Shown one piece after another: positions 34,875-36,520 of a DNA stretch of 36,520 bases (position 1 is its first letter; every line of letters begins with the position of its first letter). The stretch spans positions 1 through 36,520 of the forward strand of contig DATFKK010000012.1 of assembly GCA_035268685.1 (NCBI GenBank). The letters are read 5' to 3'. The notes under the pieces are model-generated. The model saw only the letters and a list, made by a program, of their open reading frames with translations. It was not told where the DNA came from and searched no databases. Source of the DNA: Candidatus Krumholzibacteriia bacterium (GTDB lineage: Bacteria > Krumholzibacteriota > Krumholzibacteriia > JAJRXK01). Made by a program: the position numbers and the translations under genes.

Positions 34875-35723
34875 ATGCAGCACGATTCAGCACAGCTCCG
34901 TGACCTCGAGCAGGAGATCGTTCGCATTGCGAACGTTCAGGCCGCGGCGATCCGCGTCGACACCGACGGAAACGTCGATTCGGTGGACGTGATCGCCGAT
35001 CGGAACCGGTCGCCCCAACGGATCGTCCGCGACGTCGAGATCATCCTCCGCAGCGGAGGTGTCGACGTCGACCATCGCAAGATCGGGGTCGCGGCTCTCG
35101 ACTCCCCGGAGGCGGTCCTCGGCGGTGCCCGCCGGAATCCCGGGCCGGAGACCGGATCCACCCAGACGCCTGCGCAGGAGGAACCCGAAGTGACGCGGCA
35201 GGAATCGCCACGATCCGCCCCGGAGGGCGACTCAGCGCCCCGGATGGCCGTCCTGGACTACGAACCGGACTCCGAGCGGGTTCGCCTGACGGCGGTGCAC
35301 AGCTCGACCCGCGACGGCGCCTTCTCCGTGGAGGTCGAGCTGGCCGTGGGGGCCTACGAGGGTCTGCCGGGCCGTGCCGAGGGTCCGGCGCCGGAACCGG
35401 TCGGATGCGCGGCACTGGTGGCCCGGGCCACCCTCGATGCGGTGCGCAACTTGCTCCAGCCCGGATACGAAGCCCAGCTCCGCGAGTTGAGGATCGTGGA
35501 CATGGGCGGGCTCCCGATGGTGGCGGTGACGGTGGACTTCGGTGAGGGCCGACGTCTGCAGAAGGTCGCCGGCGCGTGCCTGCAGCACGGATCGCTGAAC
35601 GACACGGCGGTCTACGCGACGCTCGACGCGATCAACCGTCCGCTGGGCCGCGCCCGGTTCCGACAACTCGCCGTGCTGGACAGCGAAGAGACCCCGGTGC
35701 AGGCTCGCCAGGCGCGGGCCTGA
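34875..35723 (+). CDS. Two-domain protein of unknown function
   Basis: This 282-residue soluble protein starts at the ATG preceded by AGGAG and AAGGA (34858-34867); a GTG 42 bases upstream is possible but adds no recognisable sequence. Residues 1-76 form a compact alpha/beta domain: IANVQAAAIRVDTDGNVDSV, DVIADRNRSPQRIVRDVEIIL, then VDVDHRKIGVAAL. A Pro/Glu/Ser-rich linker (~77-128) follows. The second domain (~130-275) has RVRLTAVHSSTRDGAFSVEV, VGCAALVARATLDAVRNLL, and AVYATLDAINRPLGRARF. I recall similar two-domain proteins of unknown function in Firmicutes and other phyla, near membrane signalling genes, but cannot check that here. No catalytic or DNA-binding motif is visible. A 147-base gap separates it from the small ORF. 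Confidence 0.7.
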   Translation: MQHDSAQLRDLEQEIVRIANVQAAAIRVDTDGNVDSVDVIADRNRSPQRIVRDVEIILRSGGVDVDHRKIGVAALDSPEAVLGGARRNPGPETGSTQTPAQEEPEVTRQESPRSAPEGDSAPRMAVLDYEPDSERVRLTAVHSSTRDGAFSVEVELAVGAYEGLPGRAEGPAPEPVGCAALVARATLDAVRNLLQPGYEAQLRELRIVDMGGLPMVAVTVDFGEGRRLQKVAGACLQHGSLNDTAVYATLDAINRPLGRARFRQLAVLDSEETPVQARQARA

Positions 35724-35858
35724 CCCGAGCCACGGAATCCAACGGGCCGATCGGAGGACCAGCGCCACCACTCCTAGCAGAGCGGAAATCGACAGGAGAG
35801 CGAAGCGAAGCCTCACTGCCGTCACCCAGCGGAGTCGACGGTAAATCCAATCGAACGT

Positions 35859-35866
35859 GAGGTGAT
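35859..35866 (+). promoter_or_regulatory. Near-ideal Shine-Dalgarno site of the 19-residue ORF
   Basis: GAGGTGAT is complementary over eight contiguous bases to the conserved 3' end of bacterial 16S rRNA (anti-SD CACCUCC region, with AUCAC). It ends four bases before the ATG at 35871. No other start in the window has so long a match. Confidence 0.75.
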
Positions 35867-35870
35867 ATCG

Positions 35871-35930
35871 ATGACGTTCCTGGAGATGATGCTCGACTTC
35901 TTCAGCCTGGCTGGGATCATCAAGTGGTAG
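35871..35930 (+). CDS. 19-residue hydrophobic peptide ORF
   Basis: The peptide is MTFLEMMLDFFSLAGIIKW, followed by TAG. It is mostly hydrophobic with acidic residues at 5 and 9 and one Lys near the C-terminus. On a helical wheel Glu5 and Asp9 lie on one face, as in membrane-surface or one-pass small peptides. It has an exceptionally strong ribosome site and sits alone in the 257 bases between the two-domain protein and the membrane protein. I do not recognise a family. Possibilities are a small membrane protein, a signalling peptide sensed by its neighbour, or a leader peptide whose translation controls the downstream gene. There is no signal peptide or export motif. Translation is probable from the ribosome site; function is unknown. 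Confidence 0.55.
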   Translation: MTFLEMMLDFFSLAGIIKW

Positions 35931-35980
35931 TTTGAGCGCTGACCTTCGATCGGCCCAGTTCCCCTCTCGGCGACACGTCC

Positions 35981-36520
35981 ATGCGCAATCGAGTCTCCGT
36001 CTACGCCTTCGTCCTCGCCGTCGTGGTCTGTGCGGCCTGGCTGCTCGACACGTTGTTGCCGGCGTGGGCCCTCGACGGGCCGCTCCTGCTCACGGTCCTG
36101 GCCTTCGCAGTCTTCGTGACCGGGATCGAGTTCCTCGAGGTCCGCACCAGCGACGGCTTCCGATGGGCGCCCTCGAGCACCGTCGACCACGCGGCCTGGA
36201 TGCTCTTCGGGCCGGTGGCGGCCATGCTCATCCGAGGTCTGGCGATCGTGGTGGGCGATGGATTCGTGCGTCGGCGGCCGCCCCTGCGGGTACTCTTCAA
36301 CACGGCCACGGGCGCGATCGCCGTCGGACTCGCCGGGGCGACCTTCCATGCGCTGCCGTGGAGCGACGACCTCTCCAGCCCGGCCTTCCTCGTGCCGGCC
36401 GTGCTCAGCCACCTGGTCTTCGCCCTGGTGAACAACCTGCTGGCCACGGTGGTCATGGCCCTGAGCGAGGCCAAGCGTTTCGACGAAGTCGCCCGCACCG
36501 TTTTCGGGTGGCACTTCCTC
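35981..36520 (+). CDS. Multi-pass membrane protein, probable sensor part of a signalling protein (partial)
   Basis: The gene runs off the window; 180 codons are present from the ATG at 35981. There is an in-frame stop at 35933-35935 and no other ATG/GTG/TTG start between. At least five hydrophobic segments occur: VYAFVLAVVVCAAWLL, LLLTVLAFAVFVTGIEFL, AAWMLFGPVAAMLIRGLAIV, a stretch with LFNTATGAIAVGLAGATF, and LVPAVLSHLVFALVNNLLAT. The pattern RRRPPLRVLFN followed by Ala/Gly-rich helix resembles the N-terminal membrane domain of some HD-GYP or GGDEF c-di-GMP proteins. The output domain is beyond the window, so this is inference. No strong ribosome site precedes the ATG, and the 19-residue ORF ends 50 bases upstream, so translational coupling or leader control is possible. 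Confidence 0.65.
   Translation, partial: MRNRVSVYAFVLAVVVCAAWLLDTLLPAWALDGPLLLTVLAFAVFVTGIEFLEVRTSDGFRWAPSSTVDHAAWMLFGPVAAMLIRGLAIVVGDGFVRRRPPLRVLFNTATGAIAVGLAGATFHALPWSDDLSSPAFLVPAVLSHLVFALVNNLLATVVMALSEAKRFDEVARTVFGWHFL

Follow-up and report, generated by a model that had tools for sequence, protein, structure and literature searches.

Does a 19-codon open reading frame lying between an uncharacterised gene and a membrane signalling gene encode a peptide, and what would such a peptide do there? The question arises near the end of a 36,520-nucleotide stretch of DNA from a Candidatus Krumholzibacteriia bacterium (the window, by which we mean the whole stretch analysed), where an ATG at position 35871 opens a micro-ORF that runs to a TAG stop codon at 35928–35930 (35871..35930, + strand) and encodes MTFLEMMLDFFSLAGIIKW. 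The ATG is preceded at a spacing of 4 nt by the Shine–Dalgarno (SD) sequence GAGGTGAT (35859..35866, + strand), and 8-base anti-SD words (n = 5), sought on either strand of the 36.5-kb window, give four matches, of which this is the sole one with an ATG 3–8 nt away. The original prediction had given these coordinates, the SD sequence and the 4-base spacing, all of which were exact on re-reading, and had stated that the downstream membrane-protein gene has no comparable ribosome site; its ATG at 35981 (CGACACGTCCATG) indeed lacks an SD. A single 19-codon ORF is weak evidence when taken alone, and could reflect a chance ORF behind a chance SD. The evidence that we bring to bear on this is comparative and computational.

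The genes on either side were used to locate the equivalent interval in relatives. Upstream is a gene for an uncharacterised protein of 282 amino acids (34875..35723, + strand) with no match in Pfam or NCBIfam, which flanks all 16 of the loci described below and has homologues in 50 of 56 relatives, phylum-wide. It is near-universal in the Krumholzibacteriota genomes searched, mostly beside an HD-GYP gene or purM. The downstream gene (35981..36520, + strand) is cut by the end of the contig, the final 141 bases of which (36380–36520) are identical to L033:18999–19139 at the end of a second contig of this genome, G000:C155; the latter carries the rest of the gene (L033 18186–19139, minus strand), followed by purM. 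The protein has MASE9 and HD_5 (PF13487, E = 5.7e-35) domains, as do its counterparts in relatives, and both the HDIGK and HHERxDGxGYP motifs can be read in its sequence, so that it is predicted to be a c-di-GMP phosphodiesterase with a membrane domain.

Intervals between the 282-aa gene and the HD-GYP gene were extracted from relatives, and the survey as a whole covered 80 genomes, mostly metagenome assemblies, from the one phylum Krumholzibacteriota. In 16 of these, which belong to families f1 (that of the window), f4 and f5, both neighbours flank a short ORF of 11–20 codons led by a strong SD, and every one of the 16 peptides ends in Trp-stop. The peptides of f1, a family with three divergent members only, are MTFLEMMLDFFSLAGIIKW, MRWLMSVMLAGHIKW and MFWVLGSKIRW; those of f4 are MFKFIFDLFFGDLLLTKTWW and two close variants; and those of f5 are MLDFILKLFYRWEW (twice), MIEFILGLFSKWEW, MLDFILGLFYKWEW, MLDFIMKLFFRWEW, MLEFLIGLFWKWEW, MLNFIIGLFFKWEW, MLDWLFALMSKWEW, MIDWLLSLFSKFEW and MLDWLLILLTKFEW. 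A FFSLAGIIKW-like tail had been proposed as a feature to search for, and is not itself conserved: the parts that are kept are [KR]W-stop within f1 and W-stop overall. Lack of a conserved reading frame in relatives with both neighbours had been named as grounds for refutation; the claim withstood this within its clade (f1, f4 and f5), whereas the more distant f3, f6, f7 and f8 have both neighbours and no such ORF, and reading the f3, f6 and f7 intergenic regions for a hidden version revealed none.

Comparison of synonymous with non-synonymous changes, proposed as a check in the original prediction, came out in favour of coding in both families in which it could be made. The pN/pS ratio is 0.11 in f4 (n = 3 sequences) and 0.43 in f5 (n = 10 sequences; 0.26 for the first six), with an excess of third-position changes in each (permutation p = 0.023 and p = 0.004, respectively, values that are only approximate because related sequences do not form independent pairs). 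For the three f1 peptides, whose lengths vary too widely for a codon test, we infer coding from where the ORF lies, from its SD and from the [KR]W-stop ending. With position, SD and terminal Trp kept in three families, synonymous change in excess in two and the ORF lying within a covarying stem (see below), a chance ORF is barely credible, and the claim that the peptide is real is well supported, since all 16 readable f1, f4 and f5 genomes carry an SD-led Trp-ending ORF.

The ORF was found to sit inside an RNA element of 160–215 nt that is closed in all 16 loci by a long stem, P1. In the window the 5' arm of P1 is GGGCCGATCGGAGG (35744..35757, + strand; p = 0.003 against dinucleotide shuffles) and pairs with the 3' arm CCTTCGATCGGCCC (35943..35956, + strand), which begins 12 nt past the stop codon. 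When dinucleotide shuffles were put through the identical best-helix search, P1 stood out from them (p <= 0.003) in all but one of 13 genomes, the exception being L010 (p = 0.11). P1 also covaries in f5 and f4: 96.9% of cells are paired in f5, with two-sided change in 7 of 14 pairs and at most 48% paired when the partner is slid by 1–3 columns, and 97.5% are paired in f4, with two-sided change in 6 of 14 pairs among three sequences and far lower values for the slid controls, although these percentages are biased upward because the arms were located by complementarity, which makes the dinucleotide shuffles the fairer comparison. When trained on f5 only, a covariance model recovers the f4 loci (E = 1e-4 to 3e-7) with one match per genome, and misses f1. 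The distance from the stop codon to the 3' arm of P1 is 2–17 nt in 16/16 loci, despite ORF lengths of 36–63 nt. Conservation of the ORF, the long-range stem that encloses it and the continuation of the downstream gene on a second contig all go beyond the original prediction.

The element is present in one copy per genome, and no further copies were found elsewhere in the genomes, where other AGCGGAG...GAGGTG matches are not accompanied by a short Trp-ending ORF in comparable surroundings. It tracks the HD-GYP gene closely within three families. Among the 17 f1, f4 and f5 genomes with this gene, the element was found in 16, and in the remaining one (G074) the gene starts <=47 bases from a contig end; the HD-GYP gene is directly downstream in 15 of the 16 element loci, the contig of the sixteenth ending there. 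No element was found in the 31 f1, f2, f4 and f5 genomes, some of them incomplete, that have no match to the HD-GYP N-terminus, nor in any of the 27 genomes of f3, f6, f7 and f8 that do carry an HD-GYP gene. In a tree of the HD-GYP proteins, one branch (support 100/97) sets all element-bearing rows apart from the others, and a single gain or a single loss therefore suffices to explain the distribution. For contigs at large, a search with the HD-GYP N-terminus of the window gave no match, and a degenerate SD-plus-peptide pattern was used instead. Across 84,980 species this pattern found short Trp-ending peptides only in Krumholzibacteriota-type loci (some on contigs that carry another phylum label or none), although distant versions may exist elsewhere because the pattern would miss f1-type peptides.

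Between the 5' arm of P1 and the SD, each element contains two to three copies of a repeat, AGCGNAG, with 35 copies in the 16 elements compared to 1.5 in shuffles. The window has two overlapping copies (AGCGAAGCGAAGC; 35799..35811, + strand), a degenerate copy AGCAGAG (35776–35782, + strand) and a further AGCGGAG (35828–35834) that lies in the loop of a hairpin with the stem TGCCGTC ... GACGGTA (35817..35843, + strand), equivalents of which with changed stems occur in G002 and G003. The core of the repeat, GCGNAGC, corresponds to the consensus of a DNA mini-hairpin with a GNA triloop and unusual stability, and variation confined to N would fit a structural role. At least one AGCGGAG is found in every element, and the N is often not G.

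This last observation bears on the possibility that the leader is controlled by CsrA, which would block a micro-ORF coupled to HD-GYP by binding GGA, both in the AGCGGAG repeats and in the SD. A CsrA gene was found in 15 of the 16 genomes that carry the element and is scarce in the HD-GYP genomes that lack it, which together with the presence of AGCGGAG in each element makes CsrA a candidate input to the leader. The conserved unit is not GGA, however, G002 has the element without a CsrA match, and CsrA is also common in members of the clade that have no element; moreover, binding of CsrA would feed into control of HD-GYP in cis rather than replace it. We consider CsrA control very unlikely as the explanation of the element. 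Across the phylum, CsrA is present in 47 of the 80 genomes; it is common in f1, f2, f4 and f5, whereas f6 and the greater part of f3 and f7 lack it.

Folding predictions indicate that the SD could be caged by the upstream part of the element, with a mean probability of being unpaired of 0.09 compared to 0.32 when the upstream part is shuffled; the effect is clear in f5, but does not exceed the control in f4 or for the window alone. A candidate anti-SD, CCTCAC (35811..35816, + strand), is complementary to GTGAGG at 35857–35862 and pairs with it in the minimum-energy fold of the relative L005, but the minimum-energy fold of the window itself does not contain this pairing. A caged SD in an RNA with paired ends calls to mind type I toxin mRNAs, among which those of Hok and AapA share the same type of long-distance 5'–3' pairing. 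AapA mRNAs encode a small hydrophobic peptide and have an SD caged by an anti-SD as well as paired RNA ends (PMC6733600), and the small hydrophobic peptides, 5'–3' pairing and predicted SD caging reported here could thus reflect the mRNA of a small hydrophobic toxin. The element differs from AapA and Hok in being one conserved, vertically inherited chromosomal locus tied to one gene and in encoding peptides of just 11–20 aa. A scan for consensus sigma-70 promoters on both strands of the window element and of four relatives, albeit crude, found none, and hence no promoter-like site for an antisense RNA. A toxin is accordingly scarcely probable.

The same scan argues against a second kind of independent transcript, namely a stand-alone small RNA of dual function that encodes the peptide, ends at P1 and acts on targets of its own, its proximity to HD-GYP being mere linkage. 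Such an RNA would account for the joining of both ends by P1, for the U-runs that follow P1 in five of the 16 elements, where they suggest a terminator, and for the TTGACA-like boxes (read by eye only) that precede P1 in f4. All five U-runs belong to f5, however, with none in f1 or f4, and the element was never found away from HD-GYP in the 80 genomes. We therefore regard a stand-alone small RNA as unlikely.

Where f1, f4 and f5 have the element, 10 of 12 f3 loci have a sigma-54-type –24/–12 promoter (TGGCAY-N5-YTGC) before HD-GYP in its place, ~85–106 nt after the stop codon of the upstream gene (L012, L013, L016, L017, L020, L022, L023, L027, L030 and L031). A promoter in the f3 interval fits the interval being the control region of HD-GYP, and it seems, judged from these sequences, that one control region of the gene has been exchanged for another between families.

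We favour, at roughly even confidence, the reading of the element as a cis-regulatory RNA leader whose translated micro-ORF would control the adjacent MASE9-HD-GYP gene. It is favoured because the element lies before HD-GYP, because P1 comes so close before the HD-GYP start in f1 and f4 that there is little room for a promoter in between, because of the promoter type found in f3 and because the distance between the stop codon and P1 is so narrow. Among the findings that count against it, f5 has enough space for a separate HD-GYP promoter, and SD caging is not above the control in f4 or in the window. The original prediction had offered a small membrane protein, a signal sensed by the adjacent protein and a regulatory leader without ranking them; the structured RNA around the ORF raises the regulatory leader above a free membrane peptide in likelihood.

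A mechanism is proposed in which a local hairpin cages the SD of the micro-ORF until it is opened by a signal, which might act via the AGCGNAG repeats, and the micro-ORF is translated. A ribosome paused at the invariant Trp-stop would cover the few bases before the 3' arm of P1 and keep P1 open, and expression would run on into HD-GYP; when no ribosome pauses, P1 would close and HD-GYP would be repressed. In this scheme the pause, what triggers it and the sign of control are all hypothetical. Because U-runs follow P1 in only 5/16 elements, a single terminator mechanism cannot fit all of them.

The main rival to control in cis is that the locus serves to produce the peptide itself, which would be very small and hydrophobic, be made together with the HD-GYP protein and bind or tune its MASE9 domain in trans, with the RNA controlling only synthesis of the peptide. 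Conserved, hydrophobic and aromatic residues are spread along the whole of the f4 and f5 peptides, beyond those near the stop codon, and conservation of this kind would equally suit a trans-acting peptide, for which the membrane sensor downstream would be the partner. On the other hand, the amphipathicity of the peptides, considered as support for a membrane peptide, is not above that of residue shuffles, their length and sequence diverge strongly between families (11–20 aa), and action in trans would leave the persistently short distance (2–17 nt) between the stop codon and the 3' arm of P1 unexplained. A trans-acting peptide is thus a serious alternative that we nevertheless hold to be somewhat improbable.

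Which known systems does a translated leader of this kind resemble? In trpL-type attenuators, Trp codons lie near the end of the leader ORF, and the element similarly has a Trp codon near the end of its ORF, followed in some members by a terminator-like stem. A trpL-type Trp attenuator was rejected: a single Trp codon stands in the window peptide in place of tandem Trp codons, the penultimate aromatic residue can be Phe (KFEW variants), residues other than Trp are conserved, and the gene downstream encodes a MASE9-HD-GYP protein and not Trp synthesis. Like c-di-GMP riboswitches of the GEMM classes, the element is a structured leader before a c-di-GMP turnover gene. A search of eight loci found no relevant Rfam match at E values up to 10 or 5, so that assignment to a c-di-GMP riboswitch or another Rfam family was also rejected, and the element, moreover, holds an ORF that is apparently translated.

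The element probably works most like a TnaC-type leader, going by analogy, although we file it as a member of neither the TnaC leaders nor the type I toxins. TnaC, from the tnaCAB operon, has 24 aa, ends in Pro and senses free Trp, and a Rho utilisation site follows its stop codon (PMC8429421). The likeness lies in a short SD-led ORF with conserved residues and a regulatory site right after the stop codon, where a stalled ribosome blocks it (PMC8429421); here the peptide ends in Trp-stop, the site is an arm of a long 5'–3' stem, the gene downstream is HD-GYP and stalling is hypothetical. As expected of a leader ORF, a short, SD-led and seemingly coding ORF precedes the gene that it would control, and as to an attenuator structure within reach of a translating ribosome, the 3' arm of P1 lies 2–17 nt past the stop codon in every locus, but U-runs follow P1 in five only. 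Going further, we tentatively suggest, as a possibility rather than a likelihood, a new class of leader in which a nascent Trp-ending peptide of 11–20 residues stalls at termination in response to a signal, holds a 5'–3' stem open and so couples translation status to the breakdown of c-di-GMP.

A literature search found nothing on an HD-GYP leader peptide or on small RNAs of Krumholzibacteriota, which is weak evidence of novelty because subscription journals were mostly outside the search. ORFs this short are skipped by annotation, and strong comparative support was obtained here at 11–20 codons, joined to a covarying RNA structure that has no Rfam match; tiny Trp-ending peptides inside a structured RNA are apparently an undescribed family. 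The element is probably a switch for the adjacent HD-GYP gene. If it does control HD-GYP, a micro-ORF would be tied to c-di-GMP signalling in an unusual way and a new arrest-peptide candidate would be at hand, whereas a peptide that acted in trans on the sensor would be remarkably small for a regulator of a membrane signalling enzyme.
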